DNA of 29,391 nt, taken from the IMG/VR virus record IMGVR_UViG_3300045738_001474, positions 1 to 29,391 of that record. The stretch is one strand, 5' to 3'. A program made the position numbers and the translations under genes. Position 1 is the stretch's first letter. Each line of letters starts with the position of its first letter. Shown here piece by piece: positions 3,001 to 26,760 of this stretch. Under the pieces are notes generated by a model. That model saw only the letters and a program-made list of their open reading frames with translations, made no database searches and was not told where the DNA came from. This stretch comes from a virus.

Positions 3001-3824
3001 GGGCAGTGCATGGCAAAGGCGGGTCCGATCCCATGGAGGCAGCTCTCGGGTTCTGGGCGAACTCACTGGACGTGTTCAATCCTTTGGGCGCGGCGGGACA
3101 TCCCTTGATATCCGTAACTCCCCACATTGCCCGTCCTCTGGTCAATATGGCGGGGCCGAACGTAAACTACATGGGCAATCCCATCTACCCGGACAAGAAC
3201 GCGTTCGGGGCCAACAAAACGGAAGCCTATCAACATTTCACTAGCGTCAATCCCTTGTCGAGGGAGCTAGCTCACGGATGGAACTCTCTTCTTGGGGGAG
3301 ACGTTTACGAGGAACCTTTCGGTGGAACCGCGTTAGGGTTCAGTCCCGAGACCCTAGACGAGATGGTGAACTTCTTCGGAGGCGGCATGGGTCGTATGGT
3401 TTGGCAGAACCTGGGAAGTGCTCTGAGACCCCAGGAGAGGGAGATCGACGACATCCTTAGGAGTATACCGATAGCTTCCGCCTTTTACCGACACAATACC
3501 CAAGACTACAATCTTCAGAGGAGATATTTCAATCTTCTGGATACGTTGGATAGGAAAAACAAACAGCTTAATATATACAAGGCAGAGGACCCTAAGAGGG
3601 CTGCGCAGTACAAGAAGGAGAACCTTCGATACATAAAGATAGGGCCCCTCGTCGATAAGCAGGATAAGCAAAGAAAGTTCTGGCGTAGGAAATTGGAGAA
3701 AATGGCGAAGGTGAAGCCAGACTCTAAAATAATGCAACAGTTTGAAAAAAAGGCGAAGGAGGATCAACGTAAGGGGATGGGTCGCGTACTTTCCAAGGCG
3801 CGACAGCTGGGCATTAACATATGA
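1..3824 (+). CDS. Large polyvalent/internal virion protein with LPD38-like C-terminus (5' partial)
   Basis: The frame is open to the left edge, so the true start lies outside the window; a TTG at 33 is only the first possible start inside it. Residues below count from that TTG, giving 1263 aa. An N-terminal segment has a nucleotidyltransferase-like signature: LTGSPALSLQGNIYRP (about 86-101) followed by IHDLDF (about 106-111), resembling the G-S...D-x-D pattern of minimal nucleotidyltransferases. Near residues 878-895 the segment NALWLFFNASVQGNYK matches what I know of the LPD38 domain of phage polyvalent proteins, followed by a hydrophobic helix (about 911-930). The C-terminus is Lys/Arg-rich. 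Such giant proteins are usually packaged with the genome and ejected into the host. It overlaps the portal start by ATGA. The LPD38/ejection role is inferred from motif and position; a DarB-like antirestriction role is an alternative. Confidence 0.72.
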   Translation, partial: LKSLEPHNKDLAKSLIAKIRDHAKKVIDYFRGRELGSQIEDLLDKTVQDFYYHPTGASRFKKKDGYVKVDLAKVLSKDPVALKWIKGIANIPGIYLTGSPALSLQGNIYRPKDEQIHDLDFSSSIPHEEAVAKIEEWLNSNSVQIIRRGGISDTHSSWHVMKDGRRFLVEILNGIDGPTPIQVELDVPEQGRSTRTQNTAPEGRVVKIVVDIPGREAETVSFMVSHFSQPFEAKLGWLRAKDILDIHGFKNADHDAPVFTSPKQEPEKQRAEKRREKALASESKFVRALVDQFHHVSHWSAGIMQDLHDAGALHGLTGKEVDDLNVIQKIRLYFGKTGDQLTDLQNAFENPMLSHLRDTKWKDALKIFGDYAYARYAPVRHKNMVELRKRSGLEVEEGRNYSGLSEKKRKAILADFKGRDAEGKAAFKKALNVFDAMNRRSLRLLRQGEILSKDGYARIEKHAKNEKGDWVWAPLRGLGEKTLDVDSSGTFQGYLQNFLELETNPESLEKMASGQGTGQGFSETSGNFVLAAAKGRYNAADSKQIMAHAIRAASETIIRTNKNEITTSIASVLARVLTKGDKDAREKYAKIARVINPNLESHKKHFIKETLVEKFQEVDGKMVKILEKKKENLLNNEDLVLTFRKEGEPQYILFKDTELGRKLVRQFKNADNVSNPNSIATLKSAMGFFAQAYTVYSPNFVVSNMMRDVGMAWFTLSSSEATKDIANSVLNPFNISTNIKAMVVVANRESRGEKIPIHLKALIAEAMKENKKGGSLKSYADDMDLVPLLYQAAGGRVSFFGIEDVDQQTNDMARRLNRMGKTGSISGGLKAFNWLKHGIKNINTGVENGVRLQVFREAIKKGMSMEKAAALSRDVTVDFNRKGNHTNWVNALWLFFNASVQGNYKLIRALFTERSPQAATVLMAKFVAGAAIYSFMSRMWAGDDDETEENHVDRLSDYERDHQLQLWLEPGTGKHVKIHIPYGLNSFLSLGRRIGDVMWRAVHGKGGSDPMEAALGFWANSLDVFNPLGAAGHPLISVTPHIARPLVNMAGPNVNYMGNPIYPDKNAFGANKTEAYQHFTSVNPLSRELAHGWNSLLGGDVYEEPFGGTALGFSPETLDEMVNFFGGGMGRMVWQNLGSALRPQEREIDDILRSIPIASAFYRHNTQDYNLQRRYFNLLDTLDRKNKQLNIYKAEDPKRAAQYKKENLRYIKIGPLVDKQDKQRKFWRRKLEKMAKVKPDSKIMQQFEKKAKEDQRKGMGRVLSKARQLGINI

Positions 3825-5872
3825 AAGAAACTAATTTTAAGTTAAACAAAAAGCAAGAAGAGGAATTAATCAAGTATTCCCTTGATCGCTTGAAGGAACT
3901 TGAAGCGGATAATCTCGAACGCATCGAGGTGGATCGCCTGGCCTGGAAGATATACGCAAACGACCGTTCGGATCGCGTAGGACACGACACCATATACGCC
4001 CAGTCGAATGTGCCTATACCGTTGACTTCCTTGATAGTAGACCATTTCCTGGCTAGGGCTGAGGACGACATCACGGGAACGGCTCCTTACTTCCGATTCG
4101 AGGCCCAGGGCCCGCAGGATATGGAAATGGTCAAGGCGTTCGATAAATATTTCAACTGGAAACTAGACAAGAAAGCTCGTACGCGCGAGCGCCTGGAAGA
4201 GAGTTACCTACATATATTCCTACAAAGGGCCGCCGTATTCAAAGCCGTCTACGAAGAAAACACATCCATCTGGTACGACTATGAGCGAAGCGCTCTCTTC
4301 GACAACGTGGAAGGCGACTTCGTAAAGACGATGGACGACAACTATGTCTTGGAAGGGGAGGCCCAGTTCGAGCCGATCACCGATCCCATGACGGGAGAGA
4401 CCGTGATGTCCATGATAGGAGAGCCGGGTATAGAGGCGATCAAAGGCCGCCACGACTTTCAACCCTTGTCGGAAGGTATACCAACCCAGCTGATCAGGTA
4501 CAAGGGTCCTCGATCCGTAGTGGTCGACAGTGATCGTTTCCTCTGCCCCTCCAATGTGGAGCACATCGAGGAAGCCGATTGCCTGGTGGAGTCCTACGAT
4601 AAGGACATGACTTGGTGCAAGGACATGTTTCTCGAGCGGGAATGGCTATCTTACGGAGACTTCAAGCAGAAGATGAAGAAGGATGCCAACCCCAGGACCG
4701 ACTCCGACAGGAACAAGGAGTACAAGGAGAATCTTTCGTTCGACGACGACAAGAATCCCTTGGTCAAGATCAAGGAGTTCTGGATCCGGAGAGATGTACT
4801 GGGCACGGGCGAACCTCAAGAGTTCTGTATCTTCATAGACCCCGAGACCGAGAATGCAATTTACTACGAGTACGTCGCGAAAGTGACTCCCGACAACAAG
4901 ATCCCCTACTCCTGCGTCTCCATAGGCAAACAGAAGAACAGGTGGTGGGGCCCTTCCCTTCCGGAGAAGATCGGAGTGTATCAGGAGTATCTCGACAAAC
5001 AATTTAACTCACAGTCCTACCGCAACGAGATGGCGGCCAATCCGATAATCGGGGTCAATCCCCAAGCTGTCGAGGACGAGCCGGATGATATAGAGCTTTA
5101 TGCGGGGAAACTATTCGAGCTGAAAGATCAGCACAAGATGGAGGACTTCCTGACTTTTGCGGTTGTGCCCAACGTGGATACGAAGACACAGGAGTTGATA
5201 GACTTCGTCTTCGGCATGGTTCAACTTTGGTTAGGGGTCAGTAATCTGGCCCAAGGGGACTACCAAGCCTTGGCCCCGGCGAACACAGCGACCGGGGTCG
5301 AGGCCACTTTAAAAGAAGCTTCCAAGATCGGGAGACGCTGGATGCGTCGAATCGTTCGAGGCTTCGAGGAACACCTGACTAAGTTGGTGAAGATAGCGAT
5401 GACCACCCTGGATGAACCTGAGGTCTTCGAGTACATGGAGGGCGACGTCACGCAGTTCGGGACGGTAACCCCGGAGATGGTGGAGAAACTGGAGACCAAC
5501 GCCCGAGTCATCCTCTCCCAGAACCAAGACCAGAGAGCTCTCGAGAAAGCCAACATGGCCCTTCAGACCCAGGAAAGATACTTTAGCTACGCCCCCGAGA
5601 TGCAGCAATGGACCCGTCCCCTGCTGGTTGAGATCCTTGGTGCAATGGGCTATGACAATATAGACGAACTTCTCCCACCGGGAGCTCCCCAGGATCCGAG
5701 AGCGGAAGCCGAGATGATGAAACTCATGGCTGATGCCCAAGGAGGAGGGGGAAGTGGGGGCGGCTCCGGTGGGGCGGCTCCGGCTAAACAAGATTCTATA
5801 GGCCCGGCGACACAGGGTATGGGGAATAGTAACCCGCAAGGGCAAAATCAATATCAACAAAGCACAGGATAA
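3821..5872 (+). CDS. Portal (head-tail connector) protein
   Basis: The 683-aa product fits a phage portal protein, the dodecameric ring at the capsid vertex through which DNA is packaged and ejected. Support: an N-terminal Lys/Glu-rich helical region, the segment SNVPIPLTSLIVDHFLARAE (about residues 66-85) typical of the start of podovirus portal cores, and a helical region after 460 containing GVSNLAQGDYQALAPANTAT, resembling the portal stem/clip. The C-terminal tail (about 635-683) is Gly/Ser/Gln-rich and probably disordered. It starts with ATGA overlapping the stop of the polyvalent protein, with no clear Shine-Dalgarno sequence, suggesting translational coupling. Its place upstream of scaffold and capsid genes is usual. 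Confidence 0.85.
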   Translation: MKETNFKLNKKQEEELIKYSLDRLKELEADNLERIEVDRLAWKIYANDRSDRVGHDTIYAQSNVPIPLTSLIVDHFLARAEDDITGTAPYFRFEAQGPQDMEMVKAFDKYFNWKLDKKARTRERLEESYLHIFLQRAAVFKAVYEENTSIWYDYERSALFDNVEGDFVKTMDDNYVLEGEAQFEPITDPMTGETVMSMIGEPGIEAIKGRHDFQPLSEGIPTQLIRYKGPRSVVVDSDRFLCPSNVEHIEEADCLVESYDKDMTWCKDMFLEREWLSYGDFKQKMKKDANPRTDSDRNKEYKENLSFDDDKNPLVKIKEFWIRRDVLGTGEPQEFCIFIDPETENAIYYEYVAKVTPDNKIPYSCVSIGKQKNRWWGPSLPEKIGVYQEYLDKQFNSQSYRNEMAANPIIGVNPQAVEDEPDDIELYAGKLFELKDQHKMEDFLTFAVVPNVDTKTQELIDFVFGMVQLWLGVSNLAQGDYQALAPANTATGVEATLKEASKIGRRWMRRIVRGFEEHLTKLVKIAMTTLDEPEVFEYMEGDVTQFGTVTPEMVEKLETNARVILSQNQDQRALEKANMALQTQERYFSYAPEMQQWTRPLLVEILGAMGYDNIDELLPPGAPQDPRAEAEMMKLMADAQGGGGSGGGSGGAAPAKQDSIGPATQGMGNSNPQGQNQYQQSTG

Positions 5873-12371: not shown

Positions 12372-13379
12372 ATGGCTGAAAATTTAGGACTGGGCATGGC
12401 CCCGACCTTCAAGGCATTGAAGGATCAATTGGCTACTATGCTGGGAGCTGAGTCTGTCAGCGACCTCCCTTTGATCGATGCTGCAAGAGTTGGTATATAT
12501 GTAAACCAGGCATATCGGGAATGCTATTCACCTCTTGACGGCAAGCGTCCTTTATGGGCGGTGGCAAACTTTGGGCTTCATCTGAAGGGGCCCCAAGCCT
12601 TGACGGGTACGACTACCCAAGGATCGACCCTAGTATCCGGACTCTCTGACACGATCTCCTCGAACTACGAGGGTAGTTACATGAAGATAGGAGATGATTT
12701 CCGAAGGGTGGCTTTGTTCGATGGGACGAACGCCTACCTCACGGCCCCCTGGCAACATGCTTCGGGCTCTCAGAGCATGACCCTTTACCACTCCTGCCAT
12801 CGACTGGATCGGGAAGTGATCGACGTAGAGGCCGCACCGGAAGTCGTGGGCTTCGGTCCGCTCTCCCCGATAAGTTCACCGGAACAAGAGGTTCGTACCC
12901 GAGCTTCTTATTCATACGACTTTGCACCCGTGCCTGGCGGCAGTGGTACCCTCCCCTCGATCAAGTACAACGGTAACGACTTTCAGATAGACAATCCTTT
13001 ATTCTACTACATAGACAACTCGGATCTGCTCAACGTAGTCGATACGGTGGATCGAATTAGCGCGGACATGACGGCCGTACGCTGCCGCTTCTCCGTATAT
13101 CCCCTGCCTAAGGAGGATATATCCATCCGCCTTCGTGCGAACATACTGCCTCTCGAGCTTTCCACGGACAATGATCTCCCGAGATTACCGGGGAACGTCG
13201 TGTGGGACATACTATTTCCTATCGCCCAAGCCAAACTTGCATTGACCGATCCTCGCTATAATGGAGACAACAAGGAGATGATTCGCAGTTCAGCAGGGGA
13301 GGCACGGGTCAGGTTATCCACGATGGGTAATGCACAAAAACAAAGAACGCTACGCATGACTCGTAGGTCGGGTTGGTGA
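12372..13379 (+). CDS. Putative head-tail adaptor/connector structural protein
   Basis: The 335-aa product starts with a helical part, FKALKDQLATMLGA...IDAARVGIYVNQAYRECYSP (residues about 13-56), that resembles the N-terminal helices of podovirus head-tail adaptors that dock under the portal. The rest is beta-rich (for example TLYHSCHRLDREVIDVEA and RCRFSVYPLPKEDISIRL), and the C-terminus is again helical and basic (AKLALTDPRYNGDNKEM onward). Position after capsid and before tail genes supports a gatekeeper or adaptor role. The start has GGGGT just upstream. The function is inferred. Confidence 0.55.
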   Translation: MAENLGLGMAPTFKALKDQLATMLGAESVSDLPLIDAARVGIYVNQAYRECYSPLDGKRPLWAVANFGLHLKGPQALTGTTTQGSTLVSGLSDTISSNYEGSYMKIGDDFRRVALFDGTNAYLTAPWQHASGSQSMTLYHSCHRLDREVIDVEAAPEVVGFGPLSPISSPEQEVRTRASYSYDFAPVPGGSGTLPSIKYNGNDFQIDNPLFYYIDNSDLLNVVDTVDRISADMTAVRCRFSVYPLPKEDISIRLRANILPLELSTDNDLPRLPGNVVWDILFPIAQAKLALTDPRYNGDNKEMIRSSAGEARVRLSTMGNAQKQRTLRMTRRSGW

Positions 13380-14772: not shown

Positions 14773-15653
14773 TGGAAGACCCATTAGAGTGGCAAGAATA
14801 CAAAGACAAGGTTGAAGAGCTAACTCGAGAACTCGAAGAGCTTAAGGACCAAGTCGAAGGTCTTTCCGGTGAGGCGGCAGAGGACTCCGGTCTCATATAT
14901 TTGGGAGAAAATGCGACTGACCAACGACAAATGGTCGTACACTATGCCGGGAATCTGGGCGAGGACCTTTCCGCAGACGACTATGGTGCCGTAAGAGACG
15001 CCTTCGAGGTCTTCGTCAAGGCCGAGGATAACGATCGCGCGCATCTAATGGAAGTTCGTCACGGCGACATGATAGCTGGAACTTTAGGTGCCGACGGGGA
15101 TCGGGTATATGCTCTCGTCACTATAGCGGACGAAGATAAGTTGGCGGGGATGCAAAACATAGGCCCTCCTCCCTATGCGGGCTCGGCTCCTTGGAGTTAC
15201 CACATCTATTCTTTCTCCTCGTGTTGTGAGTGTGCATGTACGGATCCACATGCCGATACTTTGAATTTCGCTACTGAAGTTTCGGATATCGGGTCGAGTG
15301 CCTATGGGGGGCTGGACTGGGGATGTGTTACCTACGATACTGGAGCTTGTGCTTACGTGGCGACGACGACACCCATTTCCCCCGATTCTTACTTTTTCGG
15401 GGATTACACCATGACTTGCGAGTATAAAACGGACAGGGGGTGGACCATCACGGTGACCGGAGAGGGTATCGAGACCTTACCCGATAGTGTGTTCACGGGT
15501 GCAGGGGACGATACCCTCCCGGGCATGGCCGAAAATATAGACTATACTTTTGACTTAAAACCCTGCAACGTGGACATCCCTAACGATGAAGATACGGGGG
15601 GCATTTTTCTGTCTGCGAGCACGTCCATAGCCGTAACCTCTTGCACGCCATGA
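14772..15653 (+). CDS. Tail-associated protein with N-terminal coiled coil and Cys-rich C-terminal part
   Basis: The 293-aa product begins with a heptad-type coiled coil (KDKVEELTRELEELKDQVEG, about residues 12-31), likely for trimerisation. Residues 50-130 form a mixed domain (VVHYAGNLGEDLSADDYG; VRHGDMIAGTLGADGD), as in fibre shafts. The C-terminal 150 residues are beta-rich with many Cys (SSCCECACTDPH, DWGCVTYDTGACAY, MTCEY, KPCNVD, TSCTP), unusual for proteins folded in the cytosol; they may bind metal or form disulphides outside. It starts and ends by short overlaps with neighbours. Trimeric fibre or tail-tip role is inferred. Confidence 0.55.
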   Translation: MEDPLEWQEYKDKVEELTRELEELKDQVEGLSGEAAEDSGLIYLGENATDQRQMVVHYAGNLGEDLSADDYGAVRDAFEVFVKAEDNDRAHLMEVRHGDMIAGTLGADGDRVYALVTIADEDKLAGMQNIGPPPYAGSAPWSYHIYSFSSCCECACTDPHADTLNFATEVSDIGSSAYGGLDWGCVTYDTGACAYVATTTPISPDSYFFGDYTMTCEYKTDRGWTITVTGEGIETLPDSVFTGAGDDTLPGMAENIDYTFDLKPCNVDIPNDEDTGGIFLSASTSIAVTSCTP

Positions 15654-15802
15654 CCAAAGAGGAAACATCCAAGGGTCTAGGTGACACCATTAAGAAGGTG
15701 ACGGATAGGCTGGGCATTAAGCAGTGTGGCTCTTGCGCGAGGCGGCAAAAGAAACTCAACCGGTTGTTTCCCTATAAGCCAAAGACTAAGGTAGTGGAAT
15801 GA
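15650..15802 (+). CDS. Small CxxC protein near tail genes
   Basis: This 50-aa ORF overlaps both neighbours by ATGA. The product has a helical GLGDTIKKVTDRLGI segment (about 9-23) and a CGSCARRQKKLNRLFPY segment (about 26-42) with a CxxC pair. I recall small phage proteins with the same layout (GLGDTI...CxxC...R..LN..FPY) near tail genes, but not their function. A two-Cys knuckle could bind zinc, perhaps as a pair of subunits. The two exact stop/start overlaps support that it is real. Confidence 0.6.
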   Translation: MTKEETSKGLGDTIKKVTDRLGIKQCGSCARRQKKLNRLFPYKPKTKVVE

Positions 15803-17970
15803 GATGGTTTCGCGTACCAACTTTTTCGGGCATCGAGGCGGCAGCCGATGACGCCGATCGGGGCACCCTCCGGCTAGCAGAGGGTTGTCTTCCCATAGGG
15901 CCGGGGGGACTGCACTCGGGGCCCGTTTGGGAAACCATAGGCCCTGTTTCCCGCATATCGACTAGCGAAAGTAACGAACTAGTCGCGGCGGAAGACGCTT
16001 CGGGGAACTCCGTTCTGTTGGCTAGTCGATCGGGTCGGGTGCATGACGTCAAGGTGTTCCCCATAGCGAATACGGATCTCTCAAGCTTATCCCCGTGTTA
16101 TGACGTACCTATCGGCACGGTATATAATTCCGACTTTGCATATCTGTCTGCGGTAGGGAATCGGATGGTGGCTTTTGGGGACGGCTCGAGCGAGGCACTA
16201 TTCATAGGGAGCGGATCCCCTGTAGCTGAGTCCACCTCTAGTACACCCGCCTCTACGATATACCATTTGGAATACTCTAAGTTCCCGAACTGTAAATTTT
16301 TCGTAGTCGGGCCACAAAATACTTTATTTGCTGCAGGAGATCCCGAGAATCCTCTTACTATTTATGTTTCAGAACCTGCTGGATTGACCCAACCGGACCG
16401 TGACTCTCTATATTCCGTAGAAGCCACTAGCTCGGTGGACCTCCTCATGACGGATGCAACCGAAGTAGTCGCTCTTTCCTGCGTAGCGGGAAATGTAGCG
16501 GCTCATACGGACGCCGGGGTCTTTCTACTTTTCGCACCAAGTCCAGACCAAGCGAACACGGGGTACCGAGTTGAGCAAGCCCCGACCTCCGTCGCTTCGG
16601 CGGCAGTGAACTTACAGGTTGTGGCGGGTGAAGACGGGACTCAACCCTACTACTTGGGATTCGATGGTCAGATTTGGAGAGACCCGTCAGGCCCTTCGGA
16701 CGCACAGAAGGCGGGGTATACGGATCCCGTACAACCAAGTGCCGGGGCGAAGGGACGATGGGACACCGAACATCCTGCGGATCTTTCTAATTCTTTCTCC
16801 GCCTACGACCCGGAGTCCGGTCAGTACTGGGTCTATATCGAAAACGAAGACTTCGCGAAATGGGAAGCTCGGTACGTACCCGCCCCGCCCACTGCGTTTT
16901 CAGCGGGGGTAACGCCTCATCCCCCTAAAGATTTTGAGGCAGTAATTGACCCCCTCTCGATCGCACCCCTCGCTCCTGCGGAATTTGAGGCGGTTGTGGA
17001 CATGGCTTCCTACGTTCCGAATGCTCCCATTCTTTTTAGCGCCGTCCACACACTCTTATCACCCTCCGCACCCACAGGCTTCGGGGCTTCCGTAATACCC
17101 GCCGCACCTACGGGCTTTTCGGCCCTTAGTACACCCGCCGCACCCGCAAGCTTTGCGGCCCTTAGTACACCCGCCGCACCCGCAAGCTTTGCAGCTGTCC
17201 AGGCGGTCGGAGTTCCTTCCGCACCCACAGGCTTTGTAGCACTCCAACAACCAGCCGCTCCCACCAGCTTTGCGGCCCTTGCCTCACCTACCCGACCTCT
17301 TCTTTTTACGGCCTTTGCCTCACCCGCCGCACCCACAGGCTTTGCGGCCCTCAGTACACCCGCCGCACCCACAGGCTTTGCGGCTCTCAGTACACCCGCC
17401 GCACCTACCGGCTTTACGGCCCTGCCTCTACTTCCTGCAGCTCCCACCTTATTCTCGGCACTCGAATATCCTTCCGCACCCACAGACTTTGGGGCTACCC
17501 ACACACTCTTATCACCCTCCGCACCCACAGGCTTCGGGGCGGCGCAGCACCCCGCTTGTAACGTCAACGCCCCTTGTGCCGGGTACTATGGTGGGGGGTA
17601 TCCCGCCTTCGTAATGGTAGATGTAAGAACCCAGTTGAGCAGTTCCAACATAACCCACTGGATAGGCAAACTGTACAGGCAAACTACAGTTATAGGGGAT
17701 GATTGGGGGCACCCGGAGTATGCGGGGAACGCATTTATTAGTGGTGCCGGAGGGGGCTTCGTTCCTGTGTATCTTAATTACCCCTTGCTGGGGACTTCCT
17801 CAACTAAGTTAAGAATACACTACGGGAACTGGTTCGGTAATCCCAACTACCTCTATGTAGAGAAACTCTGGAGCGGGACTTGCAGTTCGGAAAGATGTCT
17901 GCCATACGGGGCATACAATGCAAATTACTCTGGGTCTATCCCGTGGCCAGCTTCTGCCGTGATAACTTGA
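15799..17970 (+). CDS. Nozzle-like tail protein, N-terminal half, with Pro-Ala repeat array and appended C-terminal domain
   Basis: The 723-aa product begins MRWFRVPTFSGIEAAADD, with LPIGPGGLHSGPVWETIG at about 31-48. This opening and the following repeated beta blades (to about 359) look like the propeller of podovirus tail nozzle proteins (P22 gp10/T7 gp12 type). Residues about 360-583 are 17 short repeats of the form APTGFAALSTPA. Residues about 584-723 form another, beta-rich, Cys/Tyr/Trp-containing domain. The usual nozzle C-terminus is absent here but seems present at the end of the gene at 18337. AAGG lies 7 nt before the start. Nozzle assignment is by pattern; the split is an inference. 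Confidence 0.6.
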   Translation: MRWFRVPTFSGIEAAADDADRGTLRLAEGCLPIGPGGLHSGPVWETIGPVSRISTSESNELVAAEDASGNSVLLASRSGRVHDVKVFPIANTDLSSLSPCYDVPIGTVYNSDFAYLSAVGNRMVAFGDGSSEALFIGSGSPVAESTSSTPASTIYHLEYSKFPNCKFFVVGPQNTLFAAGDPENPLTIYVSEPAGLTQPDRDSLYSVEATSSVDLLMTDATEVVALSCVAGNVAAHTDAGVFLLFAPSPDQANTGYRVEQAPTSVASAAVNLQVVAGEDGTQPYYLGFDGQIWRDPSGPSDAQKAGYTDPVQPSAGAKGRWDTEHPADLSNSFSAYDPESGQYWVYIENEDFAKWEARYVPAPPTAFSAGVTPHPPKDFEAVIDPLSIAPLAPAEFEAVVDMASYVPNAPILFSAVHTLLSPSAPTGFGASVIPAAPTGFSALSTPAAPASFAALSTPAAPASFAAVQAVGVPSAPTGFVALQQPAAPTSFAALASPTRPLLFTAFASPAAPTGFAALSTPAAPTGFAALSTPAAPTGFTALPLLPAAPTLFSALEYPSAPTDFGATHTLLSPSAPTGFGAAQHPACNVNAPCAGYYGGGYPAFVMVDVRTQLSSSNITHWIGKLYRQTTVIGDDWGHPEYAGNAFISGAGGGFVPVYLNYPLLGTSSTKLRIHYGNWFGNPNYLYVEKLWSGTCSSERCLPYGAYNANYSGSIPWPASAVIT
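17046..17087 (+). repeat. 42-bp perfect direct repeat, copy 1
   Basis: The 42-bp sequence starting CCACACACTCTTATC is identical at 17046-17087 and 17499-17540. Both copies encode HTLLSPSAPTGFGA in the same frame. The copies are 453 bp apart and bracket most of the array, so recombination between them would remove or add 151 codons in frame. Confidence 0.85.
17499..17540 (+). repeat. 42-bp perfect direct repeat, copy 2
   Basis: This is the second copy of the repeat at 17046-17087, identical over 42 bp and located at the downstream edge of array 1. Confidence 0.85.
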
Positions 17971-17973
17971 ATT

Positions 17974-17987
17974 TACAACCGATTGAA
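17974..17987 (+). promoter_or_regulatory. Near-palindromic motif TACAACCGATTGAA
   Basis: This site differs by one base from the motif at 9228-9241. It lies in the short gap between the first nozzle-like gene and the Fn3 ORF, 31-44 nt before the start codon, the same spacing as the copy at 9228. An A-rich tract follows. It may be a phage promoter or regulator site. Confidence 0.35.
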
Positions 17988-18017
17988 AAAACCAAACAAA
18001 ACTAGGAGATTAATCAT

Positions 18018-18308
18018 ATGGCAACAGTAAACTTAACATGGACACCTGGTAGCGGCGGCGGCGCCGTAGCTAGTTATACAATATACCGCAGAGACATCAC
18101 CACCGATGTTGCGATCACGTTGGGTACCGCAGACGCCACGATGTCTGGCATCGCGCATACTGGGTCCGGACAGCATACGCATGCGGATCCGGATTCTTTG
18201 ACTGCGGGCCCCTACTCCTATTCCATTTACGCAATAAATGCCGCAGGAGAGAGCCCCGTTGGAGTCGCGACAGACGGACCCTCCTGCGCGAACGTGACGG
18301 TCGTATAG
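18018..18308 (+). CDS. Stand-alone Fn3 domain protein lacking strand A
   Basis: This 96-aa protein is one fibronectin type III domain: VNLTWTPGSGGGAVASYTIY (strands B and C) near the start, then a longer loop, and PYSYSIYAINAAGESPVG (strands F/G). A normal Fn3 domain starts with a PSAPTNLTA-type A strand; here the ORF begins at strand B. That missing strand is just what the arrays in the two flanking genes repeat. A good AGGAG lies 9 nt upstream of the ATG. No signal peptide is visible; it is likely a virion decoration or fibre protein. Fn3 identity is fairly sure, function is not. Confidence 0.7.
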   Translation: MATVNLTWTPGSGGGAVASYTIYRRDITTDVAITLGTADATMSGIAHTGSGQHTHADPDSLTAGPYSYSIYAINAAGESPVGVATDGPSCANVTVV

Positions 18309-18333
18309 CTTATATAGCTTAAAAGGGTTTTAA
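18304..18333 (+). repeat. Tandem TATAGCTTA and TTAAAA-GGG-TTTTAA inverted repeat
   Basis: The gap before 18337 holds two exact tandem copies of TATAGCTTA (18304-18321) that run into the inverted repeat TTAAAAGGGTTTTAA (18319-18333). The AAGGG in its middle could be the ribosome-binding site for the next gene, so the palindrome might affect initiation. Confidence 0.45.
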
Positions 18334-18336
18334 AAC

Positions 18337-20592
18337 ATGCCCGCAGGATGCGAGACAATCAACGTCTCGGGCACGACCAATGGGGTCGCTGACGGGAACT
18401 ACACTTTCGACGCCACCACTCAGGCGTGGATAAACGACAACAATGTAGAGTGGACCGTCCAAAAAACATGGTGGGAAGCTGACGCTTTAGGCGCGGGAGT
18501 TCCCGCCACTTCCGGTTTCCGCTGGAGTTTCTCGTTTTCCGGAACTACCCAGCCAGCCGGAGCCGTAACGGTTCGGATGCTCAGGCATCCTACGCTCATG
18601 CCCCATGCGTATTCGGGATTGCCCGCCCAATGGACTCCCAATTCGGCGCACGACCTCAACGGTACGGTTCAGACCCCGTCCGTGAATGCGAGCATTAACC
18701 CTATATTTTTAGAGGAATGGGTCCCTGTCCGTGTCAACCTCAAAAGGTATGATGACGCGTGGCATACTAACTTGCTCGACACAGGGACGATGGATATCGA
18801 CTTCAGCAACGTCGAGGGGTACTCCGGTACGGGGACACCCACTACGGTTCAATGGGCTGCTGCGATGGCTGGTCGGTCGTTTATTGGAATCAAATCCGTA
18901 AATAGTTATTCTGGGACGGGTATTCTTGCTCCGACCATGGTGCAGTACACCCTAAGCACGAACAATTTGCACTCTCCCTATTGGCAGAAGACGACACCCA
19001 ACGATACGCGAATATACCGAACGCATAGCTGGCCGCCCGGCAGCGACTCCCTTAGCCTGTATTTTGGTGTTTCGGGGGGAGTTAACACTAATAACTGGAC
19101 CACGTACGATGCGGCGTTGAATACCAAGTATTACTGGCAGGCAGAAGGCGAAATAGTTCCCGGCACTCGGGCCTTTAATGAGTTGATATACCCTGACAAG
19201 AACGCGTCGGGGGCCAACTACGACCTCTTGACGGAGGGCTTTACTTTCGGTACGGGGTGGAGTGCGAGCGCTCCGCTCAACAACTACCCGCTGAATCTAG
19301 TGGACGCCAATAACGGCACATACGTCCAGTGGGTTGGCAACTACCTCGACTTTGGCTACGGCTCCTCATGGGGTATCGACTTGGGTATGGCCCCCGATGG
19401 AGGAGAGACTTGCCCTTCGGAAGCCAACTGGACGGGCACGGGTATAGCTATAATAGCTCCCCCCTCCGCACCCACCGGATTTGCAGCGGTTCAACACCCA
19501 TGGACGCTACCCGCAGCACCCACCAATTTCTCAGCTGGCGTAATACCCTCCGCACCCACCAATTTCTCAGCTGGCGTAATACCCTCCGCACCCACCAATT
19601 TCGTAGCTACCCAGTTAGCGGTACCCTCCGCACCCACGGGATTCGGGGCCGTCCAGACGGGGGTACCCTCCGCACCCTCCAATTTCGTAGCTACCCAGTT
19701 AGCGGTACCCTCCGCACCCTCCAATTTCGTAGCTACCCAGTTAGCGGTACCCTCCGCACCCACTGGATTCGGGGCCGTCCAGACGGGGGTACCCTCCGCA
19801 CCCACCGGATTTGAGGCCCTCGTGGATCTAGATTCCATAGTCCCCAGCGCTCCCGTGTTAGGCACTGCCTCCGTATACCGTTTCGCCGGATGGACTAGGC
19901 CCGCACGCTACAAGGGTTATGTATATAGTGAGCTAGGGAAGTCCCTTACGGGCCCGTTTGTGGGTGGAAATATCACGGCGTTGACTTCCGTACGCGGTAC
20001 GGGGTCACTGGTTTCGGTTTCCGGGGACGATAGTCCATCCGGCGAAACGGTATACGAAATCCGCTCGACCGACCTATCTAAATTCCGGGAAAGGGATTTT
20101 GGGGAGGCACCCGTAGGCGTATGGCCCTATCCGCAACTGGCCCCGCCCAGTACCACCGCCGCTAATTTTATAGTCGGAAGCGAAAACGGGGCGTTCGCAT
20201 ACCGGGGTAGGTACCTGACTTCGCCTTTCAGTGAGTCCTTAGTCGGAAACATAGCGATTGATTCACCGCTGTACTTCGAGGACGGCCACCTGGCGATTGC
20301 CGAGACGGCATGGATGCACCTAGGGAATGAACATAACAACAAGCAGGTTCATCGACTGGACTTTAACTTTTCAACGGGATCCTTCGGCCACCTGTGGGCG
20401 TACATCCAAAGCGACAGCGAGCAGGGCAAGGTTTCCGGACAGTACAAGGGGCCGATAGAGAACAACGTCCGAGTGTTCACGAACATTCGGGGCAGGAGAT
20501 TTCGGGTTAAGCTCTTTATCGCGACGCACAAAGACCACCCCTGGAACCTGCGGGAGATGGCAGTGGGCCACCTTGTTGGGAAATCTTTTTAG
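18337..20592 (+). CDS. Nozzle-like tail protein, C-terminal half, with a new N-terminal domain and repeat array
   Basis: The 751-aa product has three parts. Residues 1-374 are a beta-rich domain (GTTNGVADGNYTFDATTQAW, then a jelly-roll-like region) not recognised. Residues about 375-494 are ten repeats of type PSAPTNFVATQLAV. Residues about 495-751 look like the end of a podovirus nozzle/tail-tube protein: EHNNKQVHRLDFNF, KVSGQYKGPI, VRVFTNIRGRRFRVKLFI, HPWNLREMAVGHLVGKSF. In related phages I expect that ending on the same polypeptide as the MRWFRVPTFSG opening now found at 15799. The last 77 bp overlap the 3' end of the opposite-strand HTH gene. Confidence 0.6.
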   Translation: MPAGCETINVSGTTNGVADGNYTFDATTQAWINDNNVEWTVQKTWWEADALGAGVPATSGFRWSFSFSGTTQPAGAVTVRMLRHPTLMPHAYSGLPAQWTPNSAHDLNGTVQTPSVNASINPIFLEEWVPVRVNLKRYDDAWHTNLLDTGTMDIDFSNVEGYSGTGTPTTVQWAAAMAGRSFIGIKSVNSYSGTGILAPTMVQYTLSTNNLHSPYWQKTTPNDTRIYRTHSWPPGSDSLSLYFGVSGGVNTNNWTTYDAALNTKYYWQAEGEIVPGTRAFNELIYPDKNASGANYDLLTEGFTFGTGWSASAPLNNYPLNLVDANNGTYVQWVGNYLDFGYGSSWGIDLGMAPDGGETCPSEANWTGTGIAIIAPPSAPTGFAAVQHPWTLPAAPTNFSAGVIPSAPTNFSAGVIPSAPTNFVATQLAVPSAPTGFGAVQTGVPSAPSNFVATQLAVPSAPSNFVATQLAVPSAPTGFGAVQTGVPSAPTGFEALVDLDSIVPSAPVLGTASVYRFAGWTRPARYKGYVYSELGKSLTGPFVGGNITALTSVRGTGSLVSVSGDDSPSGETVYEIRSTDLSKFRERDFGEAPVGVWPYPQLAPPSTTAANFIVGSENGAFAYRGRYLTSPFSESLVGNIAIDSPLYFEDGHLAIAETAWMHLGNEHNNKQVHRLDFNFSTGSFGHLWAYIQSDSEQGKVSGQYKGPIENNVRVFTNIRGRRFRVKLFIATHKDHPWNLREMAVGHLVGKSF
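19459..19818 (+). repeat. Coding repeat array 2 (ten units, mainly 36 or 42 bp)
   Basis: In-frame units alternate PSAPTNFSAGVI (36 bp), PSAPSNFVATQLAV (42 bp) and PSAPTGFGAVQTGV (42 bp). Two adjacent 42-bp units (about 19664-19747) are identical in DNA, and the GFGAVQTGV unit recurs. This is the same repeat family as array 1 in the gene upstream. Confidence 0.85.
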
Positions 20593-20881
20593 GTGGGCGA
20601 CCCGGCTTACCTCTCTTAAAGAAGCCTGCCTTCCGTAGCCTAGAACGGATAGCCTCTTCCGACACGGACAACAATCGGGCTATCGTTCCGGGGTGAAAAC
20701 CCTCCTCGAACCGGGCGTATATGAAACCCTCGTATGCCCTGAGCCTCGTTCTAATTCTTCTTTGGTCATACGCGTATAGGTAATTTTTTCGGTCGACGGC
20801 AGTGGTTGACTTCCGTGTGCCGAATGCCGCCCTGACCTGCTCGGCCGTCAGGCCCAGCTTCTCGAGAAGATCTACTGACAT
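20516..20881 (-). CDS. Small HTH DNA-binding protein with AT-hook-like tail
   Basis: The 121-aa product has a helix-turn-helix-type segment GTIARLLSVSEEAIRSRLRK (about residues 64-83), followed by GKPGRPPKK, a basic AT-hook-like patch. The N-terminal half is helical and charged. It may act as a regulator or origin-binding protein. It follows the 81-aa gene by 6 nt and the two may share the promoter near 21175. Its C-terminal ~25 residues, rich in Gly, Pro and Ser, lie antisense to the conserved end of the tail gene and may be less constrained. Confidence 0.6.
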   Translation of the reverse strand: MSVDLLEKLGLTAEQVRAAFGTRKSTTAVDRKNYLYAYDQRRIRTRLRAYEGFIYARFEEGFHPGTIARLLSVSEEAIRSRLRKAGFFKRGKPGRPPKKISQQGGPLPSPAGSRGGLCASR

Positions 20882-20887
20882 CTCATT

Positions 20888-21133
20888 TCATATCGTCACG
20901 GAGGTGGCCTCGACTATGCGGGGAGGCCAAGCCACCGCACCTATCGTGGAGAGGGTCGTCTCCTTGCCGAAGTCAAACTGAATCTCAAGATTCACCTTGA
21001 CCACCTCGCCGGATTCTATAGCACATAAACGAATTTGAGGTATGAGCTGGTCCACCACTTCAACTGCCTGCTGGCAAACTATGTCGAGGGTCTCCTTCTC
21101 AATGCCTTTTTGGTCTTCAAGCCATTCTTTCAT
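20888..21133 (-). CDS. Hypothetical 81-aa protein
   Basis: This product is not recognised. It has an acidic, helical first half (EWLEDQKGIEKETLDIVCQQ) and a beta-like second half (VVKVNLEIQFDFGKE). No membrane segment is seen. No Shine-Dalgarno sequence precedes the ATG; a promoter-like pair upstream would give a leader of only about 12 nt. It lies between the nuclease gene and the HTH gene and is probably co-transcribed with the latter. Confidence 0.5.
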   Translation of the reverse strand: MKEWLEDQKGIEKETLDIVCQQAVEVVDQLIPQIRLCAIESGEVVKVNLEIQFDFGKETTLSTIGAVAWPPRIVEATSVTI

Positions 21134-21151
21134 GGGTCACAATTGGGTTAC

Positions 21152-21180
21152 GATTTATTTAGGTCGAGTGAATATGTCAA
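21152..21180 (-). promoter_or_regulatory. Sigma70-like promoter before the 81-aa and HTH genes
   Basis: On the minus strand a perfect TTGACA (21180-21175) is followed after 17 nt by TAAATC (21157-21152; 4 of 6 match to TATAAT). The TTGACA contains the stop codon of the nuclease gene. Transcription would begin about 12 nt before the next ATG. Confidence 0.4.
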
Positions 21181-21659
21181 AGCCCTATGGGGCTGACCCC
21201 GTAGCCGAAAGTATTCCATTTGCCTTTGTACTTCTCGTACTGACCCTTCGAGTTAATTACGTGGGGTCGGACGGTTACGGTACCCGCCGAGATTTTATGA
21301 ACAGGGATCAGGTACCAAGCCTTTTCAGGGATTACGAATACCGCGAGAGTATCCACGATCGAGTCGCGGAGGTGTAGCTTTTTGTTGAGACAAAGGGCGA
21401 GAGCTTTGTAGGAAAAAGTCGAGTACCTTTTGTCGACGAGCGTACGGTGCCCCACTCCCCGAACCTGGGTCACCTTACATTTCCCATTGAGAGGGTTCAT
21501 CACAATCGTGTCATGACACTGCGGGTCGCCGTCGGGGTTGTGCGGCATGTAACCGTGGGCTAGGCATTCATAACGAAAGAGCACCTCGATTGCGGTGCCC
21601 TTCGATTTATTGTTTTTATTTTGTCGCCAGCTTGCTTCAGCTGGCTCGAAACGTCTCAT
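21177..21659 (-). CDS. Small PD-(D/E)XK-like nuclease
   Basis: The 160-aa product resembles small Holliday-junction-resolvase-type PD-(D/E)XK enzymes (PDDEXK_5 style): G21-T-A-I-E25 in the first helix, a turn HGYMPHNPDGDP, then D50 (HDTIVMNP) and TQVRGVG with Q65-V-R67 where a K is more usual. Asp50, Gln65 and Arg67 would be the active-site positions. Cassettes of this type usually carry a small nuclease (often VRR-NUC) next to the primase-helicase. The start ATG is 11 nt after the primase stop with no clear Shine-Dalgarno sequence. The Arg for Lys change leaves activity uncertain. Confidence 0.5.
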   Translation of the reverse strand: MRRFEPAEASWRQNKNNKSKGTAIEVLFRYECLAHGYMPHNPDGDPQCHDTIVMNPLNGKCKVTQVRGVGHRTLVDKRYSTFSYKALALCLNKKLHLRDSIVDTLAVFVIPEKAWYLIPVHKISAGTVTVRPHVINSKGQYEKYKGKWNTFGYGVSPIGL

Positions 21660-23934: not shown

Positions 23935-25833
23935 TCACTTGGTGTATACTTTGCTGATCGTTGCCTCCGCTCTGAGTGGAAAACCTGGAGCCCACACCGG
24001 CGGACGGCACATTATCTCTATAATTTTCGCAGACTCTTCGTCCGCTTTTTCCTCGGGCACGGCAATGACTACCTCATCGTGAACATGCATAACTATGTCG
24101 TAACCTTCGTCCTCGAGATTGAGGATAGCCTCGGCCAAAAATTCTCTGGCGTTAGCTTGAATTTCGTTCTCGAAAAGTAGGGGGCCATAGACATAAGACC
24201 TCTTCTTCTCACCCCTAAGGGTCTGGCAGGATGTGCCCGTCAGCTCAGGTCGGATGTTGAAGAACTTGAGCCTGCGCCCAGACATGAGAGGGAAGGCGTA
24301 CTCCTCACTGTTGGCGGCGCAGTGTTTGACTAAATTGTCATGCTGTCGCTGTCGCTGTTGGATCAGGGGATTCGACTGGCGGAAGTCCGACACCTGTATG
24401 TAGGCGTTGACCCAGAGCCTCTTGTCCTCGGCGTTCAGGCGGGGGAATACCTCGGCCTTGGCGGGGTGGTACTTCTCGTTGAACTCCTGAAACCTCAAGG
24501 CATCCGACCTGTTGTAAGGCCTATCCAAGACATCGACCATGCCGAAGGTCTTGACCGTCTCGAGGAAGCGGAACCACCCTGCCCCATAGCCGAGCGCCAG
24601 CACACGAACCTTCGCCAACATGTACATCTGAGGATCCTCCGTCTTCAACTTACCCCCCGTCCAGCCCATGGTGGCGCGGGCGTGGGCTTCGTAAATGTTA
24701 ACCCCCTCCTCTAGGTAGGCTAATGTGTCATGATCTTCCAGTAGATATGCGGTAGTGTGTGGTTCGATGGACGTGAAGTCCACGATGCTCCAGACCTTAC
24801 CCTCGGGTGCCTTGATGAGAGACCTGACGTCGACCCCGTACATAGGTGAACGTGGCAGGTTCTGGACGTTGTTCCCTGCGTCACCACTCCACCTGCCCGT
24901 GTGACCTCCGAAGTATTTCAAATTGTAGGGGATGGTTCCGTCGGGTCGGAGCCTACGCTGAAAGGTTCGTAACCTTTTCAGTTGGGTGTTCATGCGTTGA
25001 TAGTTCTGCATGTGGGCTACGAAAGGGAACTCGTCTCCGTGAAGTCGCATCCATTTCTCAAGCTCGGGATCGTCCTTGGCAAGGGACGTGGGCGGGTCGA
25101 TGTCCTTCTTGCGGCACTCGATGGCGAGAGCCTTCTTGGAGTAGATGACGTAAGGTTTCTTGGTGTCCGGGTCGATCTCCTCGTACCACGGAAGAAGATT
25201 TCTCAGCTCGAACATGTGCTTCTCCAGCTTGTCGAGACTCTCGAGTAAATAGGATTCGTCTATGGGCAGGCCTTTGAAGCCCATCTCCCTAGTGTGGAGG
25301 GAGAGGCGTGCCTCGTTCTCAGGCCACTCCCCACGGCACTTCTTATAAAACTCCCAGCATAACCTAGAATCGTCGAGGCAGTACTGCAAGAGTTCCTTCG
25401 CCTTGTCTTCCGCGATGGCGTCCTCCCAAGACTTGCCCTTCATCCAGTTCCGCATGGTCTTGTCCATCTCGGTGTCGAGTGCGTACTTCACGGCACCTGC
25501 GAGGTTCCTCTGGTAGTGACAGTAGACGGCTAAGTCTGCAGTGCACTCCCACCCCGCGAGGGAGTCCGCGATTTTCCAAGGTACGACCCCCTGCTCCGCG
25601 AGCCTCTCGAACACTACCTGATCGAAGGCGGCGTTGTGGGCGACTAGAGTATGCCCTTTCACTTTATCCCAAGGTGCGTCATTGGGGTGCCCCACCCACT
25701 CGAGGTCGTCGTTCACAAGTGAGACCATGTAGCATTCCCACATGGGGTGGCGGCAGTAGGCGTGAGCGCCCAGAGTTATTATGGAGCAGTCTTTGTCGTA
25801 ATAGGTTTCGAAATCGATGACTGTTGTCGGCAT
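23935..25833 (-). CDS. polA: Family A DNA polymerase with 3'-5' exonuclease
   Basis: The 632-aa product starts at the ATG at 25833, preceded by AAGGA 9 nt upstream; an 18-codon longer frame lacks such a site. Exonuclease motifs: VIDFETYYD (D7, E9), LVAHNAAFDQVVF and YCLDDSRLCWEFY. Polymerase: TGRWSGDAGNNVQNLPR, motif A WSIVDFTSIEPH (about 352), motif B MLAKVRVLALGYGAGW (about 405-418), motif C MHVHDEVVIAVP (about 582). In motif B the position of E. coli Pol I Phe762 is Leu, and that of Arg754 is Tyr. There is no 5'-3' exonuclease domain, as usual for phage PolA. It copies the phage genome together with the adjacent primase-helicase. Confidence 0.92.
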   Translation of the reverse strand: MPTTVIDFETYYDKDCSIITLGAHAYCRHPMWECYMVSLVNDDLEWVGHPNDAPWDKVKGHTLVAHNAAFDQVVFERLAEQGVVPWKIADSLAGWECTADLAVYCHYQRNLAGAVKYALDTEMDKTMRNWMKGKSWEDAIAEDKAKELLQYCLDDSRLCWEFYKKCRGEWPENEARLSLHTREMGFKGLPIDESYLLESLDKLEKHMFELRNLLPWYEEIDPDTKKPYVIYSKKALAIECRKKDIDPPTSLAKDDPELEKWMRLHGDEFPFVAHMQNYQRMNTQLKRLRTFQRRLRPDGTIPYNLKYFGGHTGRWSGDAGNNVQNLPRSPMYGVDVRSLIKAPEGKVWSIVDFTSIEPHTTAYLLEDHDTLAYLEEGVNIYEAHARATMGWTGGKLKTEDPQMYMLAKVRVLALGYGAGWFRFLETVKTFGMVDVLDRPYNRSDALRFQEFNEKYHPAKAEVFPRLNAEDKRLWVNAYIQVSDFRQSNPLIQQRQRQHDNLVKHCAANSEEYAFPLMSGRRLKFFNIRPELTGTSCQTLRGEKKRSYVYGPLLFENEIQANAREFLAEAILNLEDEGYDIVMHVHDEVVIAVPEEKADEESAKIIEIMCRPPVWAPGFPLRAEATISKVYTK

Positions 25834-25988
25834 GTAATTATATCCTTGATTTTGGGTTGTTTGGTAAGACACGTTCGTCTGACCCATTTATAGTAGCCCA
25901 TTCGCGACACACCGCTGATCTCGCAGGAGGCTTTCACGTCTAGGTACTTGGCGAGCTGATGTGCTCTCTGAAAATTCGTAGCTTTCAT
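25779..25988 (-). CDS. Small HTH-like protein, IS3 OrfB N-terminus-like
   Basis: This 69-aa ORF overlaps the start of the polymerase gene by 55 bp, and the polymerase ribosome-binding site lies inside it. Residues about 8-40 (LAKYLDVKASCEISGVSR, then MGYYKWVRR) resemble the short helix-turn-helix found at the start of IS3-family transposase OrfB (C.vlgVSrsgYYkW.kR). No transposase catalytic part follows, so it is a small DNA-binding protein or a relic. It has no clear Shine-Dalgarno sequence; a GC hairpin lies just upstream. A longer frame beginning at 26117 is mostly antisense-type sequence and is not favoured. Confidence 0.45.
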   Translation of the reverse strand: MKATNFQRAHQLAKYLDVKASCEISGVSRMGYYKWVRRTCLTKQPKIKDIITCRQQSSISKPITTKTAP

Positions 25989-25992
25989 TATA

Positions 25993-26008
25993 GGGGGCCG
26001 TAGCCCCC
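25993..26008 (-). terminator. GC hairpin between ssDNA-binding-like and HTH-like genes
   Basis: A perfect 6-bp GC stem (GGGGGC with GCCCCC) with loop CGTA sits 9-24 nt after the stop of the gene ending at 26017. No T run follows, so it may be a weak terminator, a processing site or an mRNA-stabilising end. Confidence 0.35.
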
Positions 26009-26016
26009 AAGCGAAT

Positions 26017-26760
26017 TTACGCAGAGAACTCGGCCAACCACTCCTTGAACTCAGGAGTGTTGATCGCACCCTTCTTGAGCATAGGCACGTAGGTCGTGTT
26101 GCCTGTCTTAAAGGCACGCTTCTCGGTAGTCAACTCAAACGTACCCGTGGTCAACCCCGCTCGGTAGTAGGTACCGGCGGCGGAGATGATGTCCGTGGCG
26201 GCGGAGAAGTACGCTGTGTTGCGCAGTTTCCAGCGAGCGAAGGCGAACTTCTTGTCACCGTGGTCAAACGGGAAGTAGGTCGACGTCTCGTCGTCGCAAG
26301 CGATGCAGACGAGGGCATCAGCCATGGGCTTCCACGTAGGTGCAATGCGTTCACTATCAGGGCCTGAGCTCCAACCAAGCGTACCACCTAGCTCGAGAAC
26401 CTCGGCTTTGGTGTTGACCAAGCGAGGGATCTCGTCAGTGCCCCAAGGAAGGTTTTCCTCGTAGAGTTTGGCGAGGCGGATTACCGTGATGTTCGCGGGT
26501 TGCTTGAGCTTGTACTCGCCGTCGAGTACGAGGTCGCCCTTGGCTAGCCCGTCCACGTCGGACAACTTGCCCATGCCCGAGACGATCTGGACTAGCGGGA
26601 ACTTGATGTCGTCGCTGTCGATGTCTCCGCTGATGCCTGCGGCTGATGCCGTAGACGTGGCGGCCAGCTCGTCGGCAGTGGCGATGATGTCCGTAGTTGA
26701 GATAGTCTCGGCGACTTCCTCGGCGTTTTCGATTTCGGATGTTAATGATGTCTTAGCCAT
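26017..26760 (-). CDS. Putative ssDNA-binding protein
   Basis: The 247-aa product lies between the DUF2800 nuclease and the polymerase, where this cassette normally encodes an ssDNA-binding protein (DUF2815 or gp2.5-like). The first 45 residues are Ala/Thr/Glu-rich and likely disordered. From residue 50 the protein is beta-rich (DIKFPLVQIVSGMGKLSDVD; ITVIRLAKLYEENLPWG; SAAGTYYRAGLTTGTFELTT), which could be an OB fold. The C-terminus (FKEWLAEFSA) ends with aromatic and acidic residues. I do not recognise the exact family, so the role is inferred from position and fold type. Confidence 0.45.
   Translation of the reverse strand: MAKTSLTSEIENAEEVAETISTTDIIATADELAATSTASAAGISGDIDSDDIKFPLVQIVSGMGKLSDVDGLAKGDLVLDGEYKLKQPANITVIRLAKLYEENLPWGTDEIPRLVNTKAEVLELGGTLGWSSGPDSERIAPTWKPMADALVCIACDDETSTYFPFDHGDKKFAFARWKLRNTAYFSAATDIISAAGTYYRAGLTTGTFELTTEKRAFKTGNTTYVPMLKKGAINTPEFKEWLAEFSA

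Follow-up and report, generated by a model that had tools for sequence, protein, structure and literature searches.

Organization of the locus

The window, by which we mean the whole stretch of DNA analysed, is a phage fragment (G000) given by a virus record of 29,391 bases. As placed by Pfam, its genes run in the order SU10_portal, capsid protein (Phage_capsid_3) and weak SU10_adaptor, followed by gene A, and this order matches the portal, capsid, adaptor and nozzle succession of podoviruses, the adaptor match being a weak one. Neither gene A nor gene B, which lies downstream of it, matched any PHROG or Pfam family. The features considered here are the following.

3821..5872, + strand: portal protein of the SU10 type (Pfam SU10_portal, E 1.7e-31)
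12372..13379, + strand: probable SU10-type adaptor, the expected neighbour of a nozzle (Pfam SU10_adaptor, E 0.013, weak and below cut-off)
15799-17970, + strand: gene A, 723 aa
15799..16863, + strand: gene A core, residues 1-355 (profile match E 2e-187; aligned to the unsplit relatives L030 and L104)
16876..17553, + strand: array of about 17 repeat units in gene A, of the PSAPTGFxA type and resembling Fn3 A strands (limits approximate)
17554..17967, + strand: domain at the C-terminus of gene A, Cys-containing and about 138 aa long, with a homologue at the same place in L007
18018..18308, + strand: stand-alone Fn3 ORF between genes A and B, 96 aa (Pfam fn3)
18337-20592, + strand: gene B, 751 aa
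18337..19464, + strand: N-terminal domain of gene B, no Pfam match (boundary approximate)
19465..19863, + strand: array of about 9 repeat units in gene B (limits approximate)
19894..20592, + strand: gene B core, residues 520-751 (profile match E 8e-109; aligned to L030)

The gene A core corresponds to the N-terminal part of a nozzle protein, comprising the start of the platform and most of the propeller, and the gene B core to the remainder of the propeller plus the platform at the C-terminus. A sequence-only reading of this DNA had proposed that one nozzle-like tail protein is divided over these two genes, and this is largely right, with residues 1-355 of gene A and 520-751 of gene B representing its two halves. 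One correction concerns the boundaries: the gene A half stops near residues 355-359, the gene B half starts at residue 520, and whatever lies in between, with both arrays, is variable insert. The extra domains that had been assigned to each half at the cut are present in the layout of both genes beyond their cores; the N-terminal domain of gene B is of a type conserved in L006 and L007, and gene B of L002 and L014 opens similarly.

Split and unsplit relatives

Relatives of genes A and B were taken from IMG/VR, all of them uncultured contigs. In four of these contigs (L030, L104, L105 and L010) both cores lie within one ORF, which is the unsplit form that had been sought and which confirms that a single protein is encoded by two genes in the window. 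The unsplit ORF is 653 aa long in L030 and 586 aa from stop to stop in L104 and L105 (about 580 aa from Met in L104), and in L010 the contig ends within the C core; the earlier figure of about 616 aa for the two halves comes close to the lengths in L104 and L030. The cores are 36-39 bp apart in the unsplit contigs and the sequence is continuous across the joint (VENTEYEAWLNAGSPTSWAPPSKYKAYIYSE in L030), both edges of which are retained in the window as ENEDFAKW in gene A and AGWTRPARYKGYVYSE in gene B.

The cores are separate ORFs in 32 split contigs, including the window, with 95-6734 bp between them, the cut being always at the same hairpin and the cores strictly complementary. Splits are almost bare in L021 and L135. 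In L001 a loaded gene B goes with a bare gene A, and in L017-L019 it is gene A that is loaded, gene B being bare at 220 aa; the smallest versions found are of 355 aa (gene A) and 216 aa (gene B). Because the 126-nt gap between the halves of L021 holds three in-frame stops and genes A and B of L026/L027 overlap by 4 nt, the two chains are translated separately. A family with unsplit, minimally split and heavily loaded forms amounts to a natural experiment. No match was obtained in a tblastn search of both halves and the unsplit protein against 50,697 phage genomes or in a scan of GTDB genomes, and a partial literature search found no report of a nozzle encoded in two genes.

Predicted fold of the unsplit protein

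The structure of the unsplit L030 protein was predicted with AlphaFold2, using an alignment whose rows were the N halves and C halves of the relatives, and the model obtained is of moderate confidence (pLDDT 62, pTM 0.54). In Foldseek searches of the PDB with this model, ranks 1-16 were all phage tail nozzle or head-closure proteins (best E 2e-10), the matches including Pa223, VP1, PhiM1, Kp7, A4, HRP29, T7 gp12, P22 gp10 and Sf6 gp8, with SU10 matched at 3e-5, and against BFVD the model matched P22 gp10-like and tail tubular protein B-like proteins. The nozzle identity proposed from the opening and ending of the two genes thus finds support in the predicted fold, with the proviso that TM-scores of the model to nozzles are 0.2-0.4, which makes its domain arrangement and blade number unreliable. 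According to the predicted secondary structure, the cut falls between the L030 strands 414-420 and 442-448, which form a hairpin, and one propeller blade therefore appears, as far as the model goes, to be divided between two chains.

The comparison of profiles with known nozzles that had been suggested gave a different outcome, as hhalign found no profile-profile match to the single T7, SU10 and Sf6 nozzle sequences. However, the SU10 and T7 nozzles are likewise without detectable mutual similarity (PMC9509320), so that missing sequence similarity is no strict criterion for a nozzle.

In the unsplit L030 protein, residues ~147-218 form a different insert, located early in the propeller. An insert at an early position is likewise present in L099, a gp10-like protein from a Vibrio phage; it precedes the position of the cut described here, and the protein is a single chain. 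The early insert of L030 may correspond to the site of the tip domain in T7 and SU10.

Comparison with known nozzles

SU10 gp17 (Kuravirus) resembles the protein described here in its propeller and platform fold, as predicted here and matched by Foldseek, in the presence of an SU10-type portal upstream, and in having material inserted into the propeller, in its case Ig-like domains that are exposed at the tail tip. It is one chain in which nozzle domains are inserted between blades 2 and 3 (PMC9509320), while in the present family the chain is interrupted, late in the propeller and apparently within one blade. T7 gp12 is also alike in fold by Foldseek and its propeller is open at the blade-3 loop leading to the inserted tip domain (PMC6702177), but it is a single chain without arrays, and no sequence similarity to it was found. 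P22 gp10 and Sf6 gp8 are again alike by Foldseek, with a single chain of 472 aa. In place of the one polypeptide per subunit of these nozzles, the present family has two ORFs in 32 contigs, against one ORF in four; to our knowledge, all solved nozzles are single chains.

Shared history of the two cores

The distance matrices of the N and C cores are strongly correlated (Mantel r 0.924, with none of 5000 permutations as high) and the trees of the two cores are broadly congruent. The unsplit forms constitute a single clade with 100% ultrafast bootstrap, so that one split suffices to account for the distribution, or one fusion if the polarity is reversed. The core tree is unrooted and the polarity is our inference: a split is favoured over a fusion since the solved nozzles cited here (T7 gp12, P22 gp10 and SU10 gp17) are all single chains. 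In close pairs, the dN/dS values of both cores are 0.03-0.12 and show purifying selection, which speaks against gene decay. Given that the unsplit gene persists in related phages, the split is judged to be real and old.

A probable composite nozzle subunit

The best explanation for these observations, to which we assign a probability of roughly 0.87, is that one nozzle subunit of a podovirus whose portal is of the SU10 type is encoded in two parts by genes A and B. Homology, co-evolution and selection make it reasonable to suppose that both chains are present in the virion and together rebuild one propeller. Three other explanations were considered. An intron, an intein or translational bypassing could join the halves again ahead of assembly, giving a single nozzle chain in the virion, and the fixed cut site and strictly complementary cores speak for this; nevertheless, no Rfam intron was found in 15000-21500, the inserts consist of long, open coding domains that have starts of their own, the Fn3 gene has a clear ribosome-binding site, the halves of L021 are separated by the three in-frame stops, some pairs overlap by 4 nt, and an insert length varying from 95 bp to 6.7 kb is unlike that of an intron or intein, all of which leaves this explanation very improbable. 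Still less probable is that the two genes encode full, mutually unrelated tail proteins having only the repeat in common, as could be suspected from their size in the window (both above 700 aa) and from the domains that each has of its own, because both cores share a single ORF in L030, L104 and L105, the shortest gene B has 216 aa and the shortest gene A 355 aa, and their histories are congruent. We consider equally implausible that the split is a decayed gene with one half unused: nothing was found in favour of decay, both cores are intact in the 32 split contigs, and the tested pairs have the low dN/dS values given above.

For the composite subunit, we postulate that the two chains co-fold and that six such subunits would form a ring below the adaptor. 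Nozzle rings keep the packaged DNA in place and open to let it be ejected, and the composite ring would hold and release DNA as in other podoviruses. The opened hairpin would provide two free ends, each able to carry a long surface arm consisting of an array and a terminal domain while the propeller stays unbroken, and the cut could thus serve as a port for fast-changing modules of host contact or of the virion surface, a function of the arms that we infer. Less certain is a further step, in which the adjacent Fn3 protein lacking strand A would bind the A-strand-like segments of the array, so that the arm becomes coated by Fn3 copies. If the ring does work with two chains, the nozzle fold tolerates a break inside its propeller, and such a break can be an insertion port for rapidly changing surface modules.

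Repeat arrays on the free ends

The repeat unit PSAPTGFGA, or PSAPTGFxA, occurs in chains in both genes, with 17 units detected in gene A and 9 in gene B (example of an array peptide: VPSAPTGFGAVQTG), in agreement with the earlier observation of one repeat family shared by the two. Chains of at least 4 units were found in 27 of the 4381 ORFs of these phages, compared with 0.1 in shuffles, and the DNA itself is tandemly repeated with periods of 36 and 42 bp. It had also been suggested that the insert was placed within a repeat, and this finds no support, given that no array is present at the cut in the unsplit L030 and L104 or in the minimal splits L021 and L135; the arrays are accordingly part of the inserted material and would therefore have grown on the new free ends. 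Across phages, arrays are found on gene A alone, on gene B alone or on both: in L017-L019 only gene A has one, and in L001 and L013 gene A stops at its core and repeats occur only downstream. Arrays of genes A and B within the same phage are alike at 5.7 of 10 positions in the window and 6.2 in L006, against 3.0 between phages, whereas in four other phages the values are 3.0 to 4.2 and the excess is small or absent.

Fn3 ORFs without strand A

The Fn3 ORF of the window has its own ribosome-binding site in the upstream DNA (TAGGAGATTAATCATATG), and its match to Pfam fn3 begins at residue 3 of the ORF and at position 15 of the 84 in the profile. With a derived profile, 27 Fn3 ORFs of this type were found, near-identical phages included, and all 27 begin at strand B without strand A. 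They start with Met, mostly Met-Ala, right at strand B (six residues more in L012), and when read from stop to stop have at most 15 residues ahead of strand B. Since Pfam likewise matches the Fn3 domains that lie within longer chains in L004 and L005 from position 13, a match starting at 15 is in itself no proof of a lost strand; strand A was judged to be missing because the Fn3 ORFs have no upstream residues to supply it.

In records with such Fn3 ORFs, 18 of the 22 arrays with at least 6 units lie within 200 bp of one, compared with a mean of 2.5 for random ORFs and none of 5000 draws as high, a count that is no true probability because the phages are related. In G006, G007, G011 and G016, independently of the nozzle, there is a second array gene near the portal with an A-less Fn3 of its own. 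The portal-side array genes with their adjacent A-less Fn3 are located as follows.

L048 1489-2935: array gene and A-less Fn3
L053 506-1424: array gene and A-less Fn3
G006 24989-26554: array gene and A-less Fn3
G011 46069-47475: array gene and A-less Fn3

In L026 (13544-15742), a 734-aa protein begins with an A-less Fn3 that is followed by array units in the same chain, and another stand-alone A-less Fn3 starts at 15816, after this protein.

Are the array units donor strands?

Strand A of Fn3 domains typically follows the pattern P-x-x-P-x-x-L-x-A/V, also P-x-x-P-x-x-[LF]-x-A, and the array unit PSAPTGFGA, which fits the latter, resembles this first strand in its sequence. The unit and the Fn3 ORF look like complementary pieces of a single fold, a point that the sequence-only reading did not make. 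The pairing of array and Fn3 also away from the nozzle, at the portal locus and in the L026 chain, suggests that the units act as donor strands. We tentatively consider, as a possible though not the favoured reading, that each unit is a detached Fn3 A strand able to capture one copy of the neighbouring A-less Fn3. When a unit was prefixed to the Fn3 ORF of the window, the Pfam match extended to position 1 and rose from 20.5 to 23.3 bits, against 20.0 with a shuffled unit, but units prefixed in L013 and L017 did not extend it. We folded the natural L026 chain with AlphaFold2 instead of a read-through construct of L017, whose linker could mimic strand A, and the Fn3 came out with six strands, at pLDDT 82-87 over most of its length, and no array unit docked in cis.

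The other reading, to which we would give an even chance, is that the arrays are plain flexible spacers and the Fn3 an ordinary decoration protein able to fold in the absence of strand A; they would then be neighbours through inheritance of the operon and not because they bind. It is compatible with a split nozzle and is favoured by the AlphaFold2 model, in which the six-stranded A-less Fn3 folds without any unit, and by the fact that the adjacency of arrays and Fn3 at the nozzle is in part common ancestry. Against the spacer explanation stand the return of the pair at the portal-side locus and within the L026 chain, and the agreement of the unit with the strand A pattern. In the folding of Fn3 domains, strands B, C, E and F make up the core and strands A and G are the last to pack (PMC4330816), and there is a crystal of an A-strand-swapped FN3 (PDB 4m6a); both set a precedent for Fn3 A strands being mobile and also speak against plain spacers. 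By its title, 4m6a is an N-terminal strand-swapped consensus FN3, an engineered scaffold in which the A strand can come from another molecule, as a reciprocal swap and with no donor array.

If the donor-strand reading is true, the nozzle and a second, portal-side protein would each carry a peptide rail coated with Fn3, a phage counterpart to donor-strand complementation with partners encoded side by side, and the pair of array and strand-less Fn3 gene would be a possible new way of assembling phage surface fibres. In chaperone-usher pili, which use donor-strand complementation, an Ig-like domain without strand G is found beside the segments that supply it; here it is strand A that is missing, and the candidate donors lie in tandem arrays on a separate protein. 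Neither a chaperone nor an usher was found, and a partial search of the literature returned no report of donor-strand docking in phage tails.

Other features around the cut

Inserts of other kinds occur in gene A. In L012 (11066-12706) the insert consists of cysteine-rich repeats rather than a Pro-rich array, and in L026 (11063-12223) it is array-free, has no Pfam match and contains RHEMVH, a metallopeptidase-like HExxH motif. Upstream of gene A in the window, a 50-aa ORF (KGLGDTIKKVTDRLGIKQCGSCARRQKKLNRLFPYK, 15650-15802, + strand) overlaps the gene A start by 4 nt; its homologues in L012 and L020 sit between genes A and B, so that the place of this small gene has shifted across the split. 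At the other end, a conserved helix-turn-helix-like ORF (LLSVSEEAIRSRLRKAGFF, 20516-20881, - strand) overlaps the end of gene B, and in L001, L007 and L026 the same ORF is on the + strand, downstream of gene B.
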